33,769 bases of DNA, from positions 1 through 33,769 of the forward strand of contig JAAZMR010000006.1 of the NCBI GenBank assembly GCA_012798695.1, written 5' to 3'. The translations under genes were made by a program, and so were the position numbers. Below are positions 1,297-18,524 of this stretch, one piece after another. The stretch comes from Bacillota bacterium (GTDB lineage: Bacteria; Bacillota; Limnochordia; DTU087). Each line of letters starts with the position of its first letter. The stretch's first letter is position 1. The notes beneath the pieces are model-generated. The model saw only the letters and a list, made by a program, of their open reading frames with translations, made no database searches and was not told the DNA's origin.

Positions 1297-1420
1297 ATTA
1301 CTCACTCTCCCTTTATTATCGGCTGCCACTGCTACCGGTTAGCAACGGAGCGGGAGCCAATCAGTCTCTACTACTTGTTTTTCGTATGCCTGTTAGTTTC
1401 TCCTTCAATAGATTAAAAAC

Positions 1421-1475
1421 GGTAGGGAGTATGACGCTCCCGTCGCTAAAGAGCGGAAGCGTTGTACTCCCTACC
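1421..1475 (-). terminator. Long 55-nt hairpin with T-run on the minus strand
   Basis: The outer arms ggtagggagta and tactccctacc are perfect complements. Pairing continues inward through tgacgct/agcgttg with two G-T wobbles, then, after one mismatch, a few more pairs around a roughly 9-nt loop: about 22 bp in all. On the minus strand GTTTTTAAT follows directly, so it fits a Rho-independent terminator for the small minus-strand gene at 1539-1649. It is unusually long for that role. Confidence 0.55.
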
Positions 1476-1538
1476 CAGGCTCAACCAGACATGGTGGTCT
1501 AGTGTGTCCACAGCTGTAGAGTAAGCTAGATAGCAGAC

Positions 1539-1649
1539 TTAATCATTGGATCGGTTGCATAATAGGCAAAGAATTATCGCCGCAGCTATGGCTAGCAATA
1601 TGGGACAGCAACTGGATAACTCAAAAGCATTACTACTACGCCTACTCAT
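1539..1649 (-). CDS. 36-residue small membrane protein, unknown function
   Basis: This short reading frame begins at ATG with GGAAAGGGG about 8 nt upstream and ends at TAA. The peptide has a basic, polar start (MSRRSSNAFELSS), then one hydrophobic stretch from about residue 14 to 31 (CCPILLAIAAAIILCLLC) containing four Cys at its edges, and a polar NRSND tail. It would make a single-pass membrane peptide. A terminator-like hairpin lies about 65 nt past the stop. The size and pattern recall short hydrophobic sporulation peptides such as the YjcZ group, but the sequence does not carry their Gly/Tyr-rich start, so no family is assigned. The ribosome site, clean membrane segment and terminator support a real gene. 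Confidence 0.5.
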   Translation of the reverse strand: MSRRSSNAFELSSCCPILLAIAAAIILCLLCNRSND

Positions 1650-1862
1650 AATCTTAACCCCTTTCCTAGATCATCGCCATTAGCCATCAATCGAAGATCA
1701 GACTTGGAACCCAGCGATGTACTACAATATACGTGAGATTATGTCACCCGTAACAGGACCAAACTCCGATTTGCGGTGAGCCTATGACAAATGGAGCCGA
1801 GCCCTTAGGTATCCACCAGGGGCTCCCTTCCTGGACTATTGTCCTTATGTATAGGGGAAATA

Positions 1863-1890
1863 GAAAAACCCCCACTAGTCCAGTGGGGGG
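1863..1890 (-). terminator. Rho-independent terminator after the ferritin-like gene
   Basis: On the minus strand the stem CCCCCACT/AGTGGGGG (8 bp, loop of 5) is followed by TTTTTCTA. It lies about 50 nt past the stop of the ferritin-like gene and is the clear terminator of the MFS/ferritin-like pair. Confidence 0.85.
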
Positions 1891-1938
1891 CCTGGGATAT
1901 TGAGGGAACTAAAGCTGCCTACTATGGACCTGCCAACT

Positions 1939-2682
1939 CTAACACCTGCAATGCCGCTGAAAAGCCTGAGCAAATAACCGCAAATGCAGCTCCTCATCTT
2001 TGATGATTCGGGCCAGAATCGCCCTAATGTATCTATCGTCAATCAACTCGATATGCTGACGATAGGTCTGGATCGCTGCCTGCTCTGCATCAATATCACT
2101 CTGCAGTTGCTCACAGGGGTGTCCGGGTAAGTATGATACATAACTAGCATCCCAGAACCGACCCTGGCCGTCCATATACATCGGTGGCTGGCCAAGCAGT
2201 TTAATCAGCTCTGCTAGGATCTCCATATGATGCATTTCTACGATAGCTACCCCTTCTAGGAGCTCGGTAACTTCTGCAAACTCTTCCGGCATGTCATAAT
2301 GATGGAAGAGATACTGATTGATCGCGGTCATCTCACTGACCATACCGGCATAATCGTCCAGTAATAGCCGGGCATATTCGGGATTGGGGCACTCTACCCT
2401 AATGGGGGGATATGGTTCATGTACTTCGGGAATCCTTAGAGGGCGCCCATGGACTATCCTCTCCGCCCCCCTGTCCCTGCAGTCACTTCTGCCTAGCTCC
2501 TCTCTGCAGCATAGGAGCGATTCAAAGAATGCCTGGTGATCCATTTCATCTCGCCTAATCTCTTCAATAGAGTGGTTTAGCGCCCTGCAGGGAGCGGCAT
2601 TGGCCATCCGCCGGTAAAACTCAACCGCCTCAGCCTCATCTCTGGCTGCCTCACTGACCATTTCCCAAAACTTGTCACTCAC
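1939..2682 (-). CDS. Ferritin-like (rubrerythrin/CotJC-type) di-metal protein with one and a half ferritin units
   Basis: The 247-residue product carries repeated ferritin-fold metal motifs. The N-terminal half has one helix pair (DEAEAVEFYRRM, then RRDEMDHQAFF). The C-terminal part has a complete four-helix set: EMTAINQYLFHHY, VEMHHMEILAEL, EQAAIQTYRQH and DEELHLRLFAQ, that is Glu, ExxH, Glu, ExxH. This is the ligand set of rubrerythrin, ferritin and Mn-catalase di-iron or di-manganese sites, and a role in peroxide removal or metal handling is likely. Several Cys lie between the halves and the C-terminus ends CRC. I chose the GTG at 2682, which follows a near-ideal TTGGAGGTGATT ribosome site; the longer frame to 2778 would run into the upstream MFS gene. 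It follows that gene by 55 bp on the same strand, then a terminator. Confidence 0.8.
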   Translation of the reverse strand: MSDKFWEMVSEAARDEAEAVEFYRRMANAAPCRALNHSIEEIRRDEMDHQAFFESLLCCREELGRSDCRDRGAERIVHGRPLRIPEVHEPYPPIRVECPNPEYARLLLDDYAGMVSEMTAINQYLFHHYDMPEEFAEVTELLEGVAIVEMHHMEILAELIKLLGQPPMYMDGQGRFWDASYVSYLPGHPCEQLQSDIDAEQAAIQTYRQHIELIDDRYIRAILARIIKDEELHLRLFAQAFQRHCRC

Positions 2683-2737
2683 AGGAATCACCTCCAACAC
2701 ATTGTATGCCCGTGTATAGGAAAATGGTCCTGAGTCT

Positions 2738-3952
2738 TTACCGAAAAGGTTGGGATTTGGCTGGCATGCCTGCCTCATGCCGGCGTCGCTGCAGCAGATG
2801 AGTCAAGACTGCTGCTATTACCATAAGCATACTCAACACTACCATGCCGGTACGCAAACCCACAGTATCGGCCACCATGCCCAAGAGCCAAGGCATAAGC
2901 ATGGCACCAATACCTGCTACTGTAGAAAAGTATCCCGCCAGCGGGGAAACCCATTGGGGATAGCCACTAGCACCACACGCTACAATGGTGGGGAAAATCC
3001 CAGAACAAAAGAAGCCTGCCAAGGCAAAGAGCAGCATAGCCGAGACAGGGCTGGGAGCTATCGCCCCTAGACCTACTGCTGTTGCTGTCCCTCCACACAA
3101 GAGCAGCATTAGCGTCAAATATTCCATCTTTTGGGAAATAATGCTACAAACCAGTCTTCCGATCGTCAACCCTGCCCAGAAAAATGATACAACTCCAGCA
3201 CCAAAGGCCGCCGTACTAGAAAAATTGCGCATAAAGAAAGTTGTGATCCAGCCGGTAATACTAACTTCTACACCTACGTAAATCACCATGATCAGCCCCA
3301 GTGTCAGTATGCCTGGAGCCATTACCATTTCTTTGAGGGATACCTCTCGGGAGGCTGTTGCGGTATGCTGTTGGCTATCCGACTCAGCCCGGGGGTCTGA
3401 ATCAGAGAGTTCAAATAGTGTATTAGGCATAGCCTGCCACACAAAGATGGATACCAGGTAGCACAAAGCGACAAAGAAAAAGAAGCTCTGCCAAGCTATT
3501 CCGCCCATCAGCATTACACCAATGATGGATGGTCCCAACCAAGCCCCCAGAGCAAAGAATAGATGCAATCGGTTGAGAGCGGGCCCAGGATTATCGTTAC
3601 TCCAATGGGACACAAAAGCATTAAAGCTAACCTCCAAAATACCCCAACCGATTCCCATAATCACAGCACTAGCCAACACCAATGGCCATTGAGGTGCCAA
3701 GGGAATCATGACCAGACCCACCCCTAGGCATAGCAAGCCAGCAAAGACTACTCGTTTGGGTCCAAAATGAGACATAAGACCATGGGTAGCCCCAGAAGCA
3801 CAAACTTGGCCCAGTGACAAGAGCAAGAATAGGCTGCCGGCCCTGCCTAAACTCAGTGAAAACTTAGTGATCAAAAAAGGCAGTGTAGGCCCAAAAACGG
3901 TCGCCACGAACCCCAATATAGTATAGAGAGCATACAAGACTGTCCAGTGCAT
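2738..3952 (-). CDS. MFS transporter, FucP/FHS-like
   Basis: The 404-residue product has about 12 hydrophobic segments and a central charged loop near residues 185-205 (SDSDPRAESDS). This is the standard MFS layout of two six-helix halves. The segment NRLHLFFALGAWLGP near residue 130-145 resembles the N-x-x-H-x-F-F-x-x-G-x-x-x-x-P motif of FucP-type sugar symporters, so import of a sugar or similar solute is a reasonable guess; the substrate is not defined. The start is the ATG at 3952, with TAGGAG about 8 nt upstream, rather than the in-frame ATG nine codons earlier. It is divergent from the methyltransferase gene and probably cotranscribed with the ferritin-like gene. Confidence 0.8.
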   Translation of the reverse strand: MHWTVLYALYTILGFVATVFGPTLPFLITKFSLSLGRAGSLFLLLSLGQVCASGATHGLMSHFGPKRVVFAGLLCLGVGLVMIPLAPQWPLVLASAVIMGIGWGILEVSFNAFVSHWSNDNPGPALNRLHLFFALGAWLGPSIIGVMLMGGIAWQSFFFFVALCYLVSIFVWQAMPNTLFELSDSDPRAESDSQQHTATASREVSLKEMVMAPGILTLGLIMVIYVGVEVSITGWITTFFMRNFSSTAAFGAGVVSFFWAGLTIGRLVCSIISQKMEYLTLMLLLCGGTATAVGLGAIAPSPVSAMLLFALAGFFCSGIFPTIVACGASGYPQWVSPLAGYFSTVAGIGAMLMPWLLGMVADTVGLRTGMVVLSMLMVIAAVLTHLLQRRRHEAGMPAKSQPFR

Positions 3953-8087: not shown

Positions 8088-9041
8088 TCACCGCCCCCCA
8101 CTCATTGATAATCCTGATTCTAGAGTATCTCCTTCTATGGCAGCATCTGTTGGCTGAACAACCTCGTCCTGCACTTTGGATACTACCTTTTCGGCACTTG
8201 GTATAACAATACAGACTTCGGTCCACTCTGCATGTGGATCACTATTTATGTCTAGATGGCCTCCTAGCCCCCTAGCTAGGCGATCACTGATCGCCAATCC
8301 ATAGCCGCGTTTCCCCGTCTTTGTAGAAAATCCAGGTTGTCTTACTTTCTCTAAGAACTCCACGGGAATAGTCGCTCCATTATTGCCAATCACAATTCTA
8401 CGATAGCCAGGACAACTCCTACAGGCTATGAGGACAAAGGGTTTTTGACTCTCTGCGGCTGCCTCCAGAGCATTATCCAGTAAATTGCCCAGTAACCTGG
8501 CCAGCACATGAGACTCACCGGAATTCTCCAAGGCAGCATAAGTGAGATGTACGTGGAAATCAATTCCCCGATTCATGGCTTCCTTTTGCTTGAGGTTGAT
8601 CATCTGTACCCAAGCATCTTCCGGCATGCCCTGCTCAGACACACGATTTGATACATGGGAAGCAGCATACTGTAAACACTGCTGGCCTTTCTCTAACTGT
8701 CCGGATTGCAGGTACATCAAGGCTAGAGTCAATTCATTGAGGAGGTCATGCCTTTGCTCATGCATGTGCATGAGTTCCTGGGCCTGTTCGTCGAGTTTCA
8801 TCTTCAACCGACGGATGCTGCCTTCCATGTTTTGCCATAGGTAATACCAGGCAATGATAGCCAGACTGGAGATGACTATGGCTTTAGTGCGCATGGACTT
8901 TGGCGTTGCCCCACCAATCAGTGAATAAGCGATATGCTGGTGAATAGTATAGACAACGAGGATCACCAATACCACCCAACTTAGTAAGACTCGTATCTGT
9001 CCCCGTATGTCATTTGAACCATTGCCCCTAGAACCAAGCAT
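8088..9041 (-). CDS. Two-pass membrane sensor histidine kinase, Spo0B/DcuS-like, orphan
   Basis: The 317-residue protein has two N-terminal membrane helices (about 19-43 and 53-70) with almost no external loop. A helical region follows with the phospho-acceptor EQRHDLLNELT (His 98), the Spo0B/CitA-type H-box. The ATPase part has the N-box LLGNLLDNALEAA (183-195), IGNNGATIP and the G-box TKTGKRGYGLA. With so little external sequence it probably senses a membrane or partner signal. No response regulator is in the window. It is the first gene of the lactate dehydrogenase operon (one base before etfB), so it may report on lactate or redox state. The ATG at 9041 has GGAGGG 7 nt upstream; a longer frame to 9224 would overlap the helicase gene. 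Confidence 0.82.
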   Translation of the reverse strand: MLGSRGNGSNDIRGQIRVLLSWVVLVILVVYTIHQHIAYSLIGGATPKSMRTKAIVISSLAIIAWYYLWQNMEGSIRRLKMKLDEQAQELMHMHEQRHDLLNELTLALMYLQSGQLEKGQQCLQYAASHVSNRVSEQGMPEDAWVQMINLKQKEAMNRGIDFHVHLTYAALENSGESHVLARLLGNLLDNALEAAAESQKPFVLIACRSCPGYRRIVIGNNGATIPVEFLEKVRQPGFSTKTGKRGYGLAISDRLARGLGGHLDINSDPHAEWTEVCIVIPSAEKVVSKVQDEVVQPTDAAIEGDTLESGLSMSGGR

Positions 9042-9192
9042 ACAACGCCCTCCTATGGCCCACCTATCGCATATTGTTTCTCCCTTCAACCTCAAGTTCC
9101 CTGCACAAGAGCAACAGAAACCACGGAAACAAAGAAAAGACCAAATTTTACTACCAAACCATGGCTTTTTGTAGGAACCACTCAGCCACCAC

Positions 9193-12100
9193 TCAACCCA
9201 CCAATGACGGCGAGTCCTTAGCAAGACAAAGCCTCTCTAAGAAATCCTTCACCAAACCTCTATCAAGAACATCATGACAGAACTGATTTGTGTAGTTCCG
9301 CAAGCAGCGATAACAGCTGCCATTACCCGTCTCTCCTCCGCATGTGCAGGACTGCATCCTAGCATAGGCGGCGTTTATTGCTCCCTTTATTCCAACCTCT
9401 GTGGCCAGTTGCTGAACATGACCTACCCCGCCAGGTACTGAATCAAACAATATCAGGCTGGTGGCCATATCGGGGAACCTACCCCATTGAATACATCCAT
9501 CTATCTCTGTTCGATGGACGTCCATGGCCATGCAGGCACCTTCAATCAATGCATAAAGCAGTGAGTACCAGAAACCACTGCTTTCGTATGTGCATGGTTC
9601 AAACTCAATCTTGGCTATGTCACTCCGGAATTCATGACCAAGTGCCGCTCGAATCCACCTCCCCTGGCATGGCCTGCCATAGGCATTATTATGACCGGGG
9701 TTTCCTCTCTTGGAGCCAGCTATCATACCATATCCACAGGATTGACATATGAGGAACTGAGCACCCTTGGCTCCATTGATCACAGCTAATCTCCCAGCCT
9801 TGGAAGTGCGGACTGTCACATATCCTCCCGGGAGTTCAAATCTCCTATCTCTATTACTGCTATCTGCCTCAACTCCGGAGAAAAACACTCGAGTGGAATA
9901 GGTGCGCTTCGGTCTTTGACTACCGGCAGCTTTGGGTTCCTTCAAATCAGCCAGAAAACCGAATTCTGGAACGAGAAAGGAGCCTTCACATTTCACAATA
10001 GCGCCACACGTGCCACATGCTACCGTCTTGTCACCATCACCGACATGCAGTTTGGTGACATGGTTTCTACATATAGTGCATTCACCAAAATGGTACCGGG
10101 GCCAGTGTCTTTGAGGCATACTCTGCAGATACCTGCTGACCCATATCTTCCCCCCCGCTACGGTCTCACCATCAGGCGCATAATCCGAGATGGCCAGACT
10201 AAGCTCCCTCTGTAGTTCAATATCTCGGTCCGCGTGATGGTTAAATCTCAGATCGAGCATGACTACATCAACGGGGAACCCATATCTCGGCAGCACATTT
10301 CTGCTTGACAAGAAGTTGATCAAATTGCGCTTTTTGATGGTGTTCATCAGCCTCACCAGATGGTCAGCCCCTGTTCTGCGTATGGCAACAAGCTGATCAT
10401 ATCTTTCAGTCAGAGCCGCGATATCAGACTCCACCTCTATCCGAGCAAGGGTGAGTGGACCGGGTTCCGGAGATTCTATAGGGGCAAGCAACCTATCAAC
10501 CCACGCCCAAGACTGCACACCCAATGATTCCTCAAGCTCTGCCGGAACTACTTCCTCCAAACTAGCCTGAATAGCCCTAGGCTTGGTGGCCAGATACGCG
10601 GCGAGATCATCTACACCAGAACCGTCATCACGGAGAAAAAGGTTCTCCACCCTTCCTAAGTGGTCCTCATGGTTACGCCAGAAATCTGCCAGAGCGACTG
10701 CATATACATGCCGCAGAACTATCTTCTCATTACTCAGATCGAAATGGGGTGGTTTGATGTGTCCTTTGATCATTCTGTCTGGATGCCTGTAATGGAAGGA
10801 ATCATGCGGCCGATCTTGAGCATATGTAACCACCATGGCAGCAGTACTAGACCTTCTTCCCGCTCGCCCAGCCCTCTGCACGTAATTAGCTGGCGAAGGC
10901 GGCACATTCTTCATTAGGACAACTTCCAGATCACCCAAATCCACCCCCAGTTCGAAGGTGGTTGAGCAGCTCAGGATGTTTATACGTCCTTCTTGGAAGT
11001 CCATCTGGGATCTCGCTGCCGCTATCGGGGTCAGTTGAGCGGTATGCTCTTGTGCCCGCATTTGCTTAGGGAAATTCTCATTAACATACAATCGTACATA
11101 GTGATTGGCCGCTAGCTGTTTTGCTATATCTACAGGCTGGAGGGTACCTGGACATCGGTATTGTGGACAGACACCACGTATGTTTCGCAAAGTCAGCCTG
11201 CCACATTTATCGCAAGCATACCACAGGGGTTGACGCTTGCTGCCATAGGCAAGTACGTTCCATTTCCCTGGTACCAATCGATATGTGATCCCTTTGCGGC
11301 GATCATGTATAGGGTCGAAATAACCGTTCCAGCGGCTGCGAGGGCTGTGAGGCCTTAGATCCTTTTCCCAAATATTGGAGAGCACCTCAAGGGCAATCTC
11401 GTTTAGGTCCCCCGGAAGCCCTATCCTCTGAGCAAGACGCACTAGATAATCCGATCTACGATTCAAAATAGAGGGGCGAGAGGGGATCCATGCCTTGATG
11501 TCCGGCCTGTCAGGCCGAGCCTTGCGGATAGAAGCACGCAAGTTCCCCGGCTCGAAGAGCTCGTCTTCTGCATTAACACCCTTGGGTACGCTGATGGCAC
11601 CACTTTCCCGAACAGTATTGAGCAATACATTATATAGGTCCCAGACTTCCCTTTCAGTCAACCCCCACGTACTAGCATAATATGGAGGTACTTGCCAGTG
11701 ATCGGGACGTTCAAGTTCGAATGCCAATAAGCCAAGATTCTCGAGCCCATACCGACCCCGCCCCCTGAACTCGACCAGCACACAGGTTTGTGCCGCGATG
11801 CGGGCATCATAATCCGATTTCCCTTCAAGTCTCAACACAGGCCTGAGAGCTAGTTCTGCCCGCCTCCATAAATCCGGGACCTTGACCGGCAAATCTTCTA
11901 ATTCATCAATTGCCTCTCGGGCAGCGGCTAGGATAATATTGCGCTGCAGCATGCGATCATAGGTGCTTTGCATATAGGGTGCAAAGTAGGCCGCATCCTG
12001 TCGACTATCGGAGAAGACCAGCAGCTTCTTTGGTTCTACCGAAAGGTCACCTAAGCGGACATCATCCTTAGGCCATCCATCTGCGTCATATTCTGCTTCT

Positions 12101-14097
12101 GAACCATGTAGTTCAGGGAGCACGATATTGCCTTCCGCATCGATATGCAGCTCTTGGTAGAGTGCCGTGGAAATGACACTGGCAGCAGCTTCAGGGTATG
12201 CTGATACGCCCCTCACAATTCCATGCTTGGTATTCTGTCCACCACATACGAGACAGCGGCTCACCATTCTGGTATTAGACTTCGTCTCGAGTAATTTGAT
12301 CCTCTCAACTTCGCAACTACAGGATAGACCAATTGCATCGACATGCCGAATATCGCCGCAAATGGGGCACAGTTCATGTAACAAATCCCATACATCCCAG
12401 GGCAGTGGTTCCTCGTCTTCGTCTACTCCTCCTTCGAGCTTGGTATCTGGATCGACAACCGCGTAGTAGCTAGCCTGGGCATCATTGGAAGATGTGGGGG
12501 TTAGACGCTGCCCAGCCCCACTACTAGAGGCTTCCTTCTTACCCAGTATGTATGCTGCACCACACCGCTGACAGACTCCTGTTTCATATGCCAATCCATG
12601 TCCATCACCGTAACTTACCTCGCTGATCGGATCGAGATAGATAGTAGGTTGAGGGACAAACGACAGCCAGGCCCCACCAAGAGCCCGCAGCATAAGGTGA
12701 TAACGGGCAGGCAATAGTGGAGTACTACCCTCTGAGAGCCTAGCCCTTACGGCTAAGCCAATGAGAGAAATCACATTGGTTTCGATATCATCGGAAGTAG
12801 TGCCTGGGTCAAAGAGTTCCTCGCCTAGTTCCATAATAGTTCTGGGTTCTTCGGCAAGGAATTCCTGAGCCCGAACCACATGCCCATCACCTGACAGTAC
12901 CCCATACAAGAACCGATTTAATGATGACTGAGATCTGGCTAATGCATCGGTCAATACTCTCTCAGGCACACCATAGAGATACCCCGTCTCCACCATCTGA
13001 GGTAGAGCCGTTTCTTCATCCTGACTAGAAATAGCATCTATCCAGACGGAATAGAGAAGGGGATTAGGCTTACCCCAAATAGTCTCTCTACCTGCTAGCT
13101 CCCGCTCCGCTAGGATTAGGTCCTGTCGACCGGGGTCATCAACCCTATACTCAAAATCTTCGCTAAACAGATTGGAAGCAAACTCCATGATCTGCTGTGC
13201 ATCTTCTATACCCCTACCTAGAGTGGCACTGGTCGCCACGCATTGCAGCTTTGCGGAACTCTTCCTCACCACGCGGTCTTTTAGCCGCCGGAGCAGCATA
13301 GCTGTTTCTATACCCTTGACTCCGGAATAGGTATGGGCTTCATCTAGTACTAGGAACCGCCATTCATCGGCATAACGGCCATCAAAAAAAGAATTGTCTT
13401 TGGGGCGAAGTAACAGATATTCCAGCATTGCGTAGTTGGTTACCAGAATGTTTGGGGGTGAAGTTCTCATTTCCTCACGGCAGATCATCTCATTCGGTAG
13501 GGGGTCATACTTAAATGTATTCCTATATACATCGAGGGCATCGTTCCTTGTCTCTAGGGTCTCCCCAGTATAGCGCCCAAAAGTAATATCAGGGAAAGGC
13601 TCGAACAGCTCCCTGAGGCGTTTGACTTGGTCATTGGCCAATGCATTCATTGGGTAGAGCAGCAAAGCTCTCACCCCTGGGCCAAGTGTACCCGCTTCTT
13701 GTTGACGGAGAAGATAATTGCAGATCGGGATCATGAAACACTCTGTCTTGCCGCTACCGGTTCCTGTGGCGACGACAATATTGCGCCGACCTGATACCAT
13801 CTTGCGAACAGCAGCCTCCTGATGTTTGTAAAACAACCTGTCTACAACCGCAGCTGGATACCTGGTGAACAGCTCAGACAAGACTCCTTCATCCACGAGG
13901 TCACGTAAGGTGACCGTCTTCTTAAATGGAGGCGCTGCCTGGACCACGGGTCCCCTCACGAATTTACCCTTTCTTCTCAGCTCCGTCTCAAATTGCTCCC
14001 GCAGTCGGGCATCCGCGAAGGCGTAAGTTGTCTCGAGGTATCCATAATAGGCTTCGGCCACAGCCTCACTCGTTCTGATCGGATGCACGCTCATCAT
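9193..14097 (-). CDS. Giant DEAH-box helicase with Cys-rich insertions and C-terminal DUF1998 (candidate defence helicase)
   Basis: The 1634-residue protein is a superfamily 2 helicase. The N-terminal RecA domain holds a Q-like YKHQEA (90-95), Walker A ATGTGSGKTE (110-119), motif Ia LYPMNALANDQ, LDEAH (251-255) and SAT (290-292). The second RecA domain comes only near 1020-1100, with STTFELGVDLGDL and YVQRAGRAGRR (motifs V and VI). The roughly 700-residue insert between them is rich in CxxC pairs, for example CQRCG, CPICG, CLVCGG and CDKCG, which suggest zinc fingers. The C-terminus is DUF1998: LFDSVPGGVGH, then CTCGG and CYRCLRNYTNQFCH. DUF1998 helicases include MrfA (repair) and the DrmA, DruE and Dpd-type defence helicases; the length is closest to DruE. 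It overlaps the upstream giant gene by 4 bp (ATGA), with AAAGGAG before the start. It is probably the motor of a two-protein DNA-targeting system. The helicase call is sure; the defence role is inferred. Confidence 0.9.
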   Translation of the reverse strand: MMSVHPIRTSEAVAEAYYGYLETTYAFADARLREQFETELRRKGKFVRGPVVQAAPPFKKTVTLRDLVDEGVLSELFTRYPAAVVDRLFYKHQEAAVRKMVSGRRNIVVATGTGSGKTECFMIPICNYLLRQQEAGTLGPGVRALLLYPMNALANDQVKRLRELFEPFPDITFGRYTGETLETRNDALDVYRNTFKYDPLPNEMICREEMRTSPPNILVTNYAMLEYLLLRPKDNSFFDGRYADEWRFLVLDEAHTYSGVKGIETAMLLRRLKDRVVRKSSAKLQCVATSATLGRGIEDAQQIMEFASNLFSEDFEYRVDDPGRQDLILAERELAGRETIWGKPNPLLYSVWIDAISSQDEETALPQMVETGYLYGVPERVLTDALARSQSSLNRFLYGVLSGDGHVVRAQEFLAEEPRTIMELGEELFDPGTTSDDIETNVISLIGLAVRARLSEGSTPLLPARYHLMLRALGGAWLSFVPQPTIYLDPISEVSYGDGHGLAYETGVCQRCGAAYILGKKEASSSGAGQRLTPTSSNDAQASYYAVVDPDTKLEGGVDEDEEPLPWDVWDLLHELCPICGDIRHVDAIGLSCSCEVERIKLLETKSNTRMVSRCLVCGGQNTKHGIVRGVSAYPEAAASVISTALYQELHIDAEGNIVLPELHGSEAEYDADGWPKDDVRLGDLSVEPKKLLVFSDSRQDAAYFAPYMQSTYDRMLQRNIILAAAREAIDELEDLPVKVPDLWRRAELALRPVLRLEGKSDYDARIAAQTCVLVEFRGRGRYGLENLGLLAFELERPDHWQVPPYYASTWGLTEREVWDLYNVLLNTVRESGAISVPKGVNAEDELFEPGNLRASIRKARPDRPDIKAWIPSRPSILNRRSDYLVRLAQRIGLPGDLNEIALEVLSNIWEKDLRPHSPRSRWNGYFDPIHDRRKGITYRLVPGKWNVLAYGSKRQPLWYACDKCGRLTLRNIRGVCPQYRCPGTLQPVDIAKQLAANHYVRLYVNENFPKQMRAQEHTAQLTPIAAARSQMDFQEGRINILSCSTTFELGVDLGDLEVVLMKNVPPSPANYVQRAGRAGRRSSTAAMVVTYAQDRPHDSFHYRHPDRMIKGHIKPPHFDLSNEKIVLRHVYAVALADFWRNHEDHLGRVENLFLRDDGSGVDDLAAYLATKPRAIQASLEEVVPAELEESLGVQSWAWVDRLLAPIESPEPGPLTLARIEVESDIAALTERYDQLVAIRRTGADHLVRLMNTIKKRNLINFLSSRNVLPRYGFPVDVVMLDLRFNHHADRDIELQRELSLAISDYAPDGETVAGGKIWVSRYLQSMPQRHWPRYHFGECTICRNHVTKLHVGDGDKTVACGTCGAIVKCEGSFLVPEFGFLADLKEPKAAGSQRPKRTYSTRVFFSGVEADSSNRDRRFELPGGYVTVRTSKAGRLAVINGAKGAQFLICQSCGYGMIAGSKRGNPGHNNAYGRPCQGRWIRAALGHEFRSDIAKIEFEPCTYESSGFWYSLLYALIEGACMAMDVHRTEIDGCIQWGRFPDMATSLILFDSVPGGVGHVQQLATEVGIKGAINAAYARMQSCTCGGETGNGSCYRCLRNYTNQFCHDVLDRGLVKDFLERLCLAKDSPSLVG

Positions 14098-17000
14098 CCA
14101 CTCTCCTTCCTATTCCAGCTCTTGACCACGAGATTCCCAAATAAATCGATATATGCCCGAGCTAGAGCCCTACACAAAGCAGTACTATCCTTCATCTGAT
14201 CAGCATCAAGTGCAAGTGGTCGGAAAGAACTATCGGCAAGAGTACAAACGTAAGGTGGTAGTCCCTGGCGGTCTGTAAAGTCCCTTGCAGCCATGGCTCC
14301 CAGATCATAAGTAACTACGATTTGTGCAGAAATGCGCCTGAAGTGACTGTTAAATGTCTTGCACTGGGGATAATGCTCAGTATCCCATTTTCTCTGTGAA
14401 ATAGCTCCTGGCGGATGTGGACAGTCTGGATTGAGGCATTCTACGAGCATCGTCCTAAACGCAAACTCAAATTCGGTCTCGCTATCTTGCTTACTAACCA
14501 TTTTCACGGGACCAAGGTAATCAGGGTCCTCCAGGATGAGCTCCGCATCTACATCCTGGGGGTTCCGTACCAGAGCATCTAGTATGTGTTGAGCTGAAGC
14601 AGGTGGTATCTGGATGGGTCGTACATTCTTCTCTGCTATCCACATGGTCAATCCTTCGGTAATGAGCTCCTTGGCCTTCAGCAATCTCTCTACAGACGCA
14701 CCTGTCACCAGTTCTTGAGCGGCAAGATAAGGGCCTACCGGAATGAAGCGGTAGATAAGCCCATCGCCTGAACACAATCCAATGATGGCCACATCATCGG
14801 CATCATTTATATAGAACCTAAACCTGCCCTCATCAGATAAAAATGCAGTAACCTCCCTCAGAACAGCCTCTCCCGGATTCTGTAGAGCGATTCCTACCCA
14901 ATCCCTGTGGTCATCGATGGGATGGACGGCCCCGGTACAGTAAAGTTTAGCCCCCTCCCATTCCGTCTTGAGCTCCCGTATTTGCGGAATTCCATCACTC
15001 ACCCAGAGTAGCGGTTGAGCGACTGTTTGAACTTCTATCAGATGGTCTATGTCGGATCCGCTCCATTGCAGCTCCTCTTCATCAAATACATGCATTATAT
15101 ATGGGCCAGGACGAGCACCACTAGCATCTACCCAACACCCACTGGCATCCTTCTCGATCAATGACCGGAACGTCAAACCCGAGACATCCCAAGCAGGCCG
15201 CAAGAAAACAATGGTACGTCGACGCGGGCCTATGCCGTCCCAGCTCAATCGTATTTGCTGTTCTCTCTCCCCCTCGACCAGCAAACCTTGGGGCTCGTCT
15301 GGGACCCATGCACTATGCAGAGTAGCAATATGCACTCGCTTTAGCTCCAGGGAATGCCGATCATGTAATACTAGATACAGCTCTACCCGGGGGCCCTCAC
15401 GTCGGACTGTTTCAGGCAATCCACGCAAATCCAGTTCGAGCACCACCTCACCTCTGATAACAGGCTGCGTGTCCCTCAAGGAGCCACCTTCCAAGGTTAT
15501 ACGAGCCACATCCCTTGATGTGTTCATCACCACGAGGTGTTCAAGCTGCCTGGCTTCTATATCTTCGACCCAGATATCATCCCTGGTGGAACGCCAGCGC
15601 CATCCATAAGCTCGCGACCCACCCCTATAGTTCCACTGGATAAGCGGGTATTCTATAAAAACCGGTAGTCTCACCGCCATATAGCTCAACCACCCATATG
15701 CCACTAGTGAGTGCATCTCCAACTCCAGCACATCATCGAATCTGCCGACTATGTCTGCCCCATATCCTAAGGTAAACTCCCACCCCAATGGTACGATAAC
15801 ATCGCAGCGGGCGGTTTTGCCAAGCTGAGGGACCCATACCTTCTCCTCAAAGTCAACAATGAAACCAGGTATGCGCACCACAGAGATATTTCTGTGCATC
15901 CCAAAGGGGTCTATCCATGTGCAAGTCAGCTTCACCGCAGCTTCTGGGGCAATGTCCTGCATTTCGACCAAAGAAGTGAGATCAAGCCATCCATCCTCTT
16001 CTGCCAAGTACTCTAGAGCCTCGGCCCAGTCTAACTCCAATCGTGATTCACTGTCCAAGGACTCTATAGTCAGCCGCAACTCCCGAAAAACGCTCAGTAA
16101 ATCTCTGTCCTGTTCATCCAGCTGCAATCTCATATCGGGTAGATCTCCCATGTAAATGGGGTGTCCCCGAGTGAAGGCTCCTTGAGCTCTCTCACCTCCA
16201 CGAAATTCTATCTCTTCATCGATTAGTTCAGGGGGCACCGTAAAAACCTGCTGCAGCTCCCGTAATTGCACAATCAGTTGTTGACTGTCCGTCTCCTGCA
16301 GATCAAGCCAGGCCAGGTCCCAGCCAAACTCGTCCGAGAACGGCTCCCGCATCTTCACAACAGCTTCAGGGAGTATCTGCGCATCGTGCGGCAGCAGCAC
16401 CCAGATGTTGGCATTCTTCAGCATATCTGTATTTATCCGTCTACCTGAACCGGAAAAGACTAAACACGACTCATCTGTGGACACGATTGGTATGTCATAA
16501 GAGGCAAGAGGATGATGGGAGTATTCTATGTCAAGTTTGAGTGGCCCATCAATGGTAGACAGTTCTACCTCAACGGCCTGCACCTCGATACCACCACTGA
16601 CTCTGCGGGCATCTAGGAGTATCTCATCGACCAAGTGACCTTCAGCATCTCTCAATAAGGCCTGCAGCCATCCCTGTCCACTGAAATCACCGGCATAGTG
16701 ATGCTCCCCAATGTATAAGCCAAGTACTCGCCTACCGATGTCCAGACGAATCTGCAGGGTAGGAGGGCGAATCTTACGTGGGATACGGCTTTGCCCCCCT
16801 TTGGGAGGGATAGGTCCTTGTTTTGGTGGATAACCATCTCGGCTGGGAGCCATCTCCTCCAAGGCCTTCATGAGGCGTGCAGGGGCCATATCGGTTAGTT
16901 CACTATAGACTCCAGGGGCTGAGCCTAGATAAGCAGCGGTGACCACCATCCACTGCTCTGCCCAATTACCGCCGTGTTCGAGAAAGTCCAGTATTGGCTC

Positions 17001-18131
17001 GGGGAGTTGATACTGCTGCTCTCGCCCATACCTATTTCTCACCTTTTGGAAGCGCTGCCGCACACCTCTGGGAGTCACCAGACCGCTCTTTACATAGTCT
17101 CGATTCACCATATCTGCGAAAACGGAAATACATGAATCCGGTATACCGGCTTGAAACAGCATCTGGGTCACATAGCGAAGCCCGCGGGTAACCCGACATA
17201 TCGCCAAACCATGATGCTCTTGGCAGATCTCGATCGCGTACCTCAACTCACGGGCATTGGTCATGTCGCCATCAGCCAACCGCTCGGCAATCGCGGGCCA
17301 TACTTCACCTTCTGCATAACCCTCGGCAGCTACATGCACTAGTGCATAGGCAATAGCACAGGGATACTGCCTAGCAAGGCGCCGGGCCCGGGCCGCACCA
17401 TCTGGCGCATCCTGTATCGCAGCGGAGATCTGCTGCAGCAATCTGTCATACTGCTCGTCTGGCATCTCTATCCGGCCGAGAAAGCTGGTCTTTGTTAAAG
17501 CCTCCTCCAGCTGGCTATCATATGCCCCTATCGTATCGGCCCTGGGCACATCGATCCGAATGGGTTTCACCAATGTGAAGTCATCATCTGATGGTATCAT
17601 CTGGGGCTTAGACGGAGCATCGTTTTTACCCTCAAAGGGTAATTTCGGTTGTTCCACTCGACGAGGTATCTGCTCACATAACCTCTCTGACCATTGACGC
17701 GCGATCATTCTAAAGGCGTTGGCCAGGAAGATCGGTGACACGGAAGCAGAATATACCTGTTCTTGTTCACTCGCGGTTTCGCTCCAGCCCAATGGCAAGA
17801 TCCCAGAAGGAGGAATAGTTACACTTCTAATCACATACTCAACAGTCCGAGGTTTAAAGCGCTGGGTTGGGCGTTGAGCAGCTAAACGCCTTGCCAGCAC
17901 CACCAGGCGCTTATCAACCGAAACTGCCCAGTCCGGTACAGCTGCAAAACCTATGAATCCATCACTGCAAAGGAGCTTTAGTGTATAATCACGCTCTAAG
18001 GCGACAAAGCGCCAATCTCCAAATAGCGGATCATTCCTAACTTTCTTACATACCTTCACCAGGGTTCTCGCAGGTCTGGATTTCCGTCGATCAGCCCTGC
18101 ATGCATTCAGAGAACGAATAACTTCCTCCAC
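14094..18131 (-). CDS. Giant (~1345-residue) protein of unknown family, partner of the DUF1998 helicase
   Basis: I do not recognise this family. No membrane segment, signal peptide, Walker motif or nuclease motif is visible. About 1-130 is alpha/beta; 160-210 is a Pro/Lys/Asp-rich linker; 215-430 looks helical; a second linker rich in Pro, Lys and Gly lies near 435-465. Then about 700 residues of alternating hydrophobic/polar strands suggest stacked beta domains. The last 150 residues have a Cys/His cluster near 1235-1270 (CLNPDCPHP ... EHYPQC) and a helical end. The gene overlaps the helicase by 4 bp and shares its promoter, so the two products probably act together. The layout resembles DruH-DruE of Druantia type III, but homology is unproven. 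The GTG at 18131 follows TAAGGGGTGAG; an in-frame ATG at 18158 lacks a spaced ribosome site but is possible. Confidence 0.85.
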   Translation of the reverse strand: MEEVIRSLNACRADRRKSRPARTLVKVCKKVRNDPLFGDWRFVALERDYTLKLLCSDGFIGFAAVPDWAVSVDKRLVVLARRLAAQRPTQRFKPRTVEYVIRSVTIPPSGILPLGWSETASEQEQVYSASVSPIFLANAFRMIARQWSERLCEQIPRRVEQPKLPFEGKNDAPSKPQMIPSDDDFTLVKPIRIDVPRADTIGAYDSQLEEALTKTSFLGRIEMPDEQYDRLLQQISAAIQDAPDGAARARRLARQYPCAIAYALVHVAAEGYAEGEVWPAIAERLADGDMTNARELRYAIEICQEHHGLAICRVTRGLRYVTQMLFQAGIPDSCISVFADMVNRDYVKSGLVTPRGVRQRFQKVRNRYGREQQYQLPEPILDFLEHGGNWAEQWMVVTAAYLGSAPGVYSELTDMAPARLMKALEEMAPSRDGYPPKQGPIPPKGGQSRIPRKIRPPTLQIRLDIGRRVLGLYIGEHHYAGDFSGQGWLQALLRDAEGHLVDEILLDARRVSGGIEVQAVEVELSTIDGPLKLDIEYSHHPLASYDIPIVSTDESCLVFSGSGRRINTDMLKNANIWVLLPHDAQILPEAVVKMREPFSDEFGWDLAWLDLQETDSQQLIVQLRELQQVFTVPPELIDEEIEFRGGERAQGAFTRGHPIYMGDLPDMRLQLDEQDRDLLSVFRELRLTIESLDSESRLELDWAEALEYLAEEDGWLDLTSLVEMQDIAPEAAVKLTCTWIDPFGMHRNISVVRIPGFIVDFEEKVWVPQLGKTARCDVIVPLGWEFTLGYGADIVGRFDDVLELEMHSLVAYGWLSYMAVRLPVFIEYPLIQWNYRGGSRAYGWRWRSTRDDIWVEDIEARQLEHLVVMNTSRDVARITLEGGSLRDTQPVIRGEVVLELDLRGLPETVRREGPRVELYLVLHDRHSLELKRVHIATLHSAWVPDEPQGLLVEGEREQQIRLSWDGIGPRRRTIVFLRPAWDVSGLTFRSLIEKDASGCWVDASGARPGPYIMHVFDEEELQWSGSDIDHLIEVQTVAQPLLWVSDGIPQIRELKTEWEGAKLYCTGAVHPIDDHRDWVGIALQNPGEAVLREVTAFLSDEGRFRFYINDADDVAIIGLCSGDGLIYRFIPVGPYLAAQELVTGASVERLLKAKELITEGLTMWIAEKNVRPIQIPPASAQHILDALVRNPQDVDAELILEDPDYLGPVKMVSKQDSETEFEFAFRTMLVECLNPDCPHPPGAISQRKWDTEHYPQCKTFNSHFRRISAQIVVTYDLGAMAARDFTDRQGLPPYVCTLADSSFRPLALDADQMKDSTALCRALARAYIDLFGNLVVKSWNRKESG

Positions 18132-18185
18132 GCGATTCTCACCCCTTAGGGACGGCATCCTGTGTCGGCCAGATTAGAAGCAACG

Positions 18186-18214
18186 AATATGCAATTTGCT
18201 ACACTGTATGTCAA
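18186..18214 (-). promoter_or_regulatory. Sigma-70-type promoter for the giant gene/helicase operon
   Basis: On the minus strand a perfect -35 TTGACA (18209-18214) is separated by exactly 17 bp from CATATT (18186-18191, 4 of 6 to TATAAT). Transcription would start near 18179, giving a leader of about 20 nt to the ATG at 18158 or about 48 nt to the GTG at 18131. It lies just left of the UvrD remnant. Confidence 0.6.
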
Positions 18215-18227
18215 TTGCCGTCTCTAA

Positions 18228-18524
18228 TTGGAAGTATTCGCCAGAATGTCTAGGAACCCTTGGGCCTCTGACATCCCTCATTGCCGCCCAGACGAAACTA
18301 AGGTGATAGCAAGCCTGTGCACAATTCTTGAACGGATCGCGAAGGAAAGCAATTGGGGGAAGTTGGATGATCGCAGCTTCGACGGATTGCGGATTGCCAA
18401 CATGCATAGGGTAAAAGGCTTGGAGTTCGAACATGTCTTCATCGTGGCCGCCAATAAACGCAACGTGCCACATCCTAAGTCGATAGCATATGAGGATCAT
18501 GTTTCACTGACTAAGAGGACATAG
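18228..18524 (+). pseudogene. Truncated UvrD/Rep-type helicase remnant (C-terminal RecA segment)
   Basis: The frame encodes about 98 residues. LRIANMHRVKGLEFEHVFIVAA matches the UvrD/PcrA C-terminal motif (T-x-H-x-x-KGLE-[FW]-x-x-V), followed by NVP and a DHVSL stretch where intact proteins continue to the E-x-RRLxYVAxTRA motif VI. Here it stops at 18524 before motif VI, and the whole ATPase N-terminus is missing: an in-frame stop lies directly before 18228 and no upstream UvrD sequence is seen. No ribosome site is evident. It is therefore a broken gene. It lies head to head with the giant gene, and its left edge is close to that gene's promoter. It may be the scar of a third component (for example a Gabija- or other defence-type UvrD helicase) or of an unrelated repair helicase replaced by the module. 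Confidence 0.7.

Follow-up and report, generated by a model that had tools for sequence, protein, structure and literature searches.

The Druantia type III layout is a two-gene operon in which a large partner protein is encoded directly upstream of the helicase DruE. In E. coli, the partner DruH carries Ig-like domains, probably senses the phage and has a dimer-dependent nuclease activity; DruE is a helicase that loads on 3' single-stranded DNA (PMC13192584). The Mycobacterium smegmatis pair MSMEG_1253/1254, which has been called a type III Druantia, protects against phage; the proteins are of 1132 and 1667 amino acids, the genes overlap by 17 bp and there is no nuclease (PMC13316683). A minor tail protein activates the mycobacterial pair, which keeps phage DNA from being replicated and circularized (PMC13316683). 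Activity against phages is also reported for the E. coli system. Data on the coupling of partner and helicase differ between the two systems: no stable DruH–DruE complex was seen by mass photometry for the E. coli proteins (PMC13192584), whereas partner and helicase interacted in mycobacterial two-hybrid and pull-down experiments (PMC13316683). A III-like branch that mostly lacks a nuclease has also been described (PMC12458937).

The window analysed here, a stretch of 33,769 nucleotides, contains two genes that very probably form a Druantia III-like system against phages. An initial annotation had proposed either a DruH–DruE-like (Druantia III) system or a new two-gene defence system. The first of these readings is supported: the helicase proves to be DruE-like and the partner is linked to DruH by a profile match of its N-terminal domain. 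The pair is a variant form that belongs to a diverged branch within a known system and does not make up a class of its own.

Organization of the gene pair

Both genes were found intact and full length on the minus strand at the positions first annotated, with 4 bp (14094–14097) shared between them (Table 1). The junction, GGAAGGAGAGTGGATGATGAGCG, holds the helicase's own ribosome-binding site. Full-length pairs are conserved elsewhere, so these are not chance reading frames; their base composition does not set them apart. The 1354-residue partner frame exists as annotated, but its start at 18158 is probably wrong. In two orthologues (L118 and L117) the partner begins about 10 residues further in and AAGGGGTGAG immediately precedes codon 10, and GTG 18131 is for these reasons probably the true start. 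The annotation had also assumed a shared promoter. A candidate site is present, the TTGACA-17-CATATT sequence being the best-placed match, but the 11 promoter-like sites in the region do not exceed the 11.6 of shuffled sequence, and a single promoter for the pair is only plausible from the sequence and unproven.

Table 1. Features of the gene pair and its immediate surroundings in the window
Feature	Position	Strand	Details
Spo0B-type sensor kinase-like ORF	8088–9224	-	TTG start overlaps helicase by 32 bp; start probably too far upstream
DruE-like YprA-family SF2 helicase gene	9193–14097	-	1634 aa
Helicase motifs			GTGSGKTE aa 112; DEAH 252; ATSAT 288; QRAGRAGRR 1074; eight CxxC; MZB/DUF1998 1515–1599
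Partner gene, DruH-like	14094–18158	-	ORF, 1354 aa; probable true start GTG 18131, giving 1345 aa
Beta-rich tandem Ig/FN3-like part of partner, ~aa 468–1354	14097–16757	-	AlphaFold2 model, Foldseek
Conserved helical N-domain of partner, ~aa 204–390	16989–17549	-	Alignment A1, hmmsearch, hhalign, model; common to other DruE partners, remotely DruH
N-terminal extension of partner, ~aa 1–190	17589–18158	-	Only in window subclade (L118, L117, L114)
Possible sigma-70 promoter of pair, TTGACA-17-CATATT	18186–18214	-	Consensus match only
UvrD/GajB-type helicase C-terminal domain remnant	18228–18524	+	98 aa; Pfam UvrD_C E=6e-7; PADLOC GajB 2e-4

The helicase

The helicase contains the Pfam domains DEAD, Helicase_C and MZB (DUF1998; E=1.6e-9), with SF2 motifs I, II, III and VI all preserved. 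It matches the PADLOC DruE models of types 1 to 4, with DruE1 the best (3.5e-170) and DruE3 at 1.1e-153. The closest solved structures are the E. coli DruE entries 9tu7–9tuc. Judged by sequence, the protein is DruE-like along its full length. The core of E. coli DruE aligns in two blocks (29% and 25% identity), and the alignment stops near residue 1725 of 2104, ahead of the published PLD domains. Only 35 residues follow MZB in the window protein and no further domain is formed from them; the helicase thus lacks a nuclease domain.

The arrangement is that of Druantia type III, with a large partner directly upstream of DruE in a two-gene operon and the order kept in relatives. No DruA–DruD of Druantia type I was detected by Pfam or PADLOC among the neighbours scanned, and the C-terminal PLD nuclease domains of type III-A are missing from the window helicase. 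Standard DISARM had been excluded in the initial annotation, and rightly so, as helicase and DUF1998 form a single fused protein with no split DrmA/DrmB, methyltransferase or DrmC nearby.

The partner protein

The partner gave no match in Pfam, NCBIfam or PADLOC, and direct searches with it of genome contigs and plasmids gave none either; its relatives were reached via profiles and via the helicase. In a search of relatives, weak matches were limited to residues ~210–385, in proteins that again stand ahead of DruE-like helicases. The partner is a member of a large family without existing models, in which a helical N-domain of ~150 residues is followed by a string of Ig/FN3-like beta domains. 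As none of the profile libraries tested detects this protein, the number of systems of this type is probably underestimated. The protein is closed by a Cys/His cluster, CLNPDC..HYPQC (residues 1241–1266).

An AlphaFold2 model of residues 190–1354 (mean pLDDT 77.7, pTM 0.46) shows many beta domains in a row behind the helical N-domain. Foldseek matched it in both libraries to multi-domain Ig/FN3 bead proteins, with TM below 0.2 and large r.m.s.d. These matches are taken to indicate tandem Ig-like domains and no more; a common origin with cytokine receptors or with tail proteins was rejected. The N-domain modelled alone is confident (pLDDT 88.3, pTM 0.89). Foldseek of this model against the PDB (releases to April 2026) gave no match below E 0.001 and no related fold; DruH (9tud), though among the PDB sequences, was absent from the results. 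An hmmsearch of solved-structure sequences with the partner family returned coiled-coil artefacts, which came from homologues with a coiled-coil insertion.

Relationship of the partner to DruH

No significant match to E. coli DruH was obtained with BLASTP, and PADLOC DruH3 did not match the partner, which places it outside direct membership of the DruH (STY4851/ECs_5259, YjiT) family. Profile comparison of the kind suggested in the initial annotation did reveal a link, which is restricted to the N-domain. A profile of 99 N-domain sequences, aligned by hhalign to the first 230 columns of a profile of eight DruH proteins, matched collinearly with DruH residues 34–144 (P=1.2e-5, probability 81, score 37.2). 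The maximum score among 60 column-shuffled profiles was 23.2 and the reversed profile scored 15.6. The N-domain also matched the cyanobacterial DruE partner of Nostoc (L043:2155–5058; 8.9e-9) and a Nitrosococcus DruA-operon protein encoded upstream of DruE (L048:2040–4907; 1.6e-6). With the profile link positive and BLASTP and PADLOC negative, the partner is DruH-like via a common N-domain and not a member by the usual models; the pair is accordingly a variant and not a plain member of Druantia III. Of the two proteins, the helicase alone clearly matches a named system.

Besides DruH and the Druantia III-like partners, the N-domain occurs in a protein of a Druantia I operon, in the DruE partners of cyanobacteria, in a DISARM-like operon and at SNF2/UvrD loci. 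A tentative reading, somewhat short of an even chance, is that it represents a so far unnamed coupling module common to YprA-family defence helicases, with interchangeable sensor or effector parts behind it. The shared domain offers a concrete starting point, at the level of residues, for asking how different sensors connect to a single type of helicase.

Several relatives carry further features. In L129 (4360–15655) an N-domain protein is encoded at the head of a DISARM-like operon that also includes DrmA and a GajB/RT-associated-type helicase, which suggests that the domain is common beyond Druantia. Relatives of the Nitrosococcus protein on plasmids of Azospirillum, Rhizobium and Leisingera (L216, L217 and L218) adjoin UvrD and SNF2/DEAD helicases with no recognisable DruE, and possibly belong to another helicase-plus-sensor system. 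The C-terminal ~230 residues of a Chloroploca partner (L158:5945–9982) match MzaA (PADLOC 1.7e-57), a domain also present in another defence system. Two partners, L120:6086–10051 and L036:2096–5905, match the unnamed PADLOC model C3a139 ‘HKD+Snf2’ (3.8e-77 and 1.9e-32), so that part of the partner family has already been modelled as a candidate.

Distribution and phylogeny

The A1 N-domain profile has matches in 9 of 73 genomes of the class and 35 of 398 of the phylum. A scan with the helicase alignment gave 80 named loci in Bacillota, Actinomycetota, Chloroflexota, Methanobacteriota, Planctomycetota, Thermotogota, Bacteroidota and others. An N-domain gene lies directly upstream of the helicase in 77 of 95 cases, a number that combines two partly redundant sets with some contigs in common, so that independent loci are fewer; of the 18 helicases without such a gene, 7 lie at loci truncated by a contig end. 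Nearly all complete loci encode an N-domain protein of 930–1930 residues followed by a helicase of ~1570–1640 residues. In four loci (L038:488–1510, L072:6961–7926, L037:8620–9171 and L071:6298–6873) an extra small gene, in some cases coiled-coil, directly precedes the partner, and these may be three-gene variants. In the same-family relative G004 the helicase is split by an in-frame stop codon (L004:3–3959), and this copy may therefore be inactive.

Full-length orthologues of both proteins occur in L118, L117 and L114, with 32–39% identity for the partner and 56–62% for the helicase. In the nearest orthologue the values are 39% and 62%; on these sequence identities the partner evolves faster than the helicase. 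DruH likewise changes faster than DruE (PMC13192584).

In a tree of 64 helicases, the window protein belongs to a 50-member clade with support 100 that is apart from the III-A (E. coli), I, cyanobacterial, YprA and ARMADA sequences, ARMADA being a single long branch. The clade includes Mycolicibacterium and Mycobacterium loci whose size, overlap and domain content are as published for MSMEG_1253/1254, a comparison made by description, as the tree was drawn without the MSMEG sequences and the III-B reference GIH50614.1. In L211 the Walker lysine 119 and motif III alanine 292 lie at the published numbers; the residue numbers reported for MSMEG_1253 do not line up clearly with the mycobacterial partners. 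The clade, separate and without a nuclease domain, is probably the III-like/III-B branch of PMC12458937, again by comparison with the published description.

These results bear on whether the pair could instead be a new type of two-gene defence system, with a helicase resembling DruE, a partner unrelated to DruH and a different way of working. The partner has no direct similarity to any DruH model, the clade is separate from III-A and lacks the nuclease domain, and the N-terminal extension is unique to the window subclade. Such a system is nevertheless improbable given the homology of the N-domain to DruH, the same gene order and Ig-like layout, the mycobacterial members of the same clade with the layout that the literature calls type III Druantia, and the prior description of a III-like branch without nuclease (PMC12458937).

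Genomic context

The intact neighbours of the pair are metabolic genes and the window holds no other intact defence gene, in keeping with the annotation that no nuclease, methyltransferase or PLD gene lies alongside. The UvrD helicase remnant adjoins the start of the partner just upstream, on the opposite strand, and is not part of the working system. The Spo0B-type kinase-like ORF at the other end was rejected as a third component, as its TTG start is doubtful and its orthologue lies beside ETF-beta in a genome (G001) without the pair.

Metabolic neighbours would also suit a housekeeping DNA-repair pair, formed by a YprA/MrfA-like helicase and an accessory protein, and helicases of the same family do work in DNA repair (PMC12458937). 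This explanation is highly improbable. The same genome has a separate YprA-type copy (contig C79), YprA proteins form a separate branch of the tree, and YprA-like matches are present in 61 of 61 relatives, in contrast to the patchy distribution of the N-domain gene given above. Two relatives (G008 and G010) also lack the pair at the corresponding site. There ~4.5 kb separate the conserved FAD-oxidase/ETF and MurQ/NAGK blocks, and an ABC transporter lies between ETF-beta and MurQ; in the window the distance is 12.7 kb and includes the pair. At an orthologous locus (L135, from the same genome as L118) the pair is surrounded by an intact UvrD-type helicase (1361–3430), part of a type III methyltransferase, a transposase, a STAND-like NTPase and a ResIII/SNF2 helicase. 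The absence of the pair from this site in relatives and these surroundings fit a mobile defence pair rather than a housekeeping one.

A wider survey of homologue neighbourhoods, as first suggested, gave a mixed picture: among the 113 proteins encoded on the flanks of 58 related loci there are matches to BrxH, DpdF/DrmD-like, Wadjet JetA, AbiD, GajB-like and methyltransferase proteins, but plain metabolic genes occur there too, which is a listing and not an enrichment. That the pair is an inactive relic of a defence island, as the UvrD remnant directly upstream and the internal stop codon in G004 might suggest, is scarcely credible with both window genes intact and full length, all helicase motifs present and the orthologues conserved along their whole length.

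Possible mechanism

By analogy, the Druantia III-like pair of the window most likely works as the E. coli and mycobacterial pairs do, with the partner sensing infection and the helicase acting on replicating phage DNA. The partner would be the infection sensor, its Ig-like array recognizing a product of the phage (probably a protein of the virion or the tail); the N-domain common to DruE partners could couple this sensor to the helicase. Phage replication intermediates with 3' single-stranded ends may then serve as loading sites for the helicase, which would translocate or unwind. As it lacks a nuclease domain, DNA damage would need a nuclease of the partner or the host; it is possible that a latent activity in the partner (cf. 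dimeric E. coli DruH) or host nucleases inflict this damage and so block phage replication.

The mechanism of Druantia III is currently studied on forms whose DruE bears PLD nuclease domains. The clade described here is widespread in bacteria and archaea without such a domain, and allows the direct question of whether DNA is destroyed by the partner, the helicase or the host.

Comparison with known systems

The window pair shares with DISARM and ARMADA a YprA-family helicase with DUF1998, and an N-domain protein also occurs in the DISARM-like operon of L129; unlike those systems, it has no methyltransferase, BrxH, PLD or split DrmA/DrmB gene. Druantia I and the cyanobacterial DruE operons similarly encode a DruE-like helicase and an upstream protein with the same N-domain, but carry further genes (DruA and others) and helicases of different clades. 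With E. coli DruH–DruE (III-A; PMC13192584; PDB 9tud, 9tu7–9tuc) the pair has in common the gene order, the DruE core, the DruH N-domain by profile and the Ig-like domains of the partner. It differs in that the 2104-residue E. coli DruE ends in two PLD domains, which are missing in the window, and in that the two helicases belong to separate clades. The closest likeness is to III-B and MSMEG_1253–1254, in which a large partner again comes first and overlaps a DruE-like helicase of ~1.6 thousand codons that has the DEAD, helicase C and DUF1998 domains but lacks a nuclease domain. The window partner differs from these by its ~190-residue N-terminal extension and C-terminal Cys/His cluster, and what it has in common with the mycobacterial partners is mainly the N-domain.
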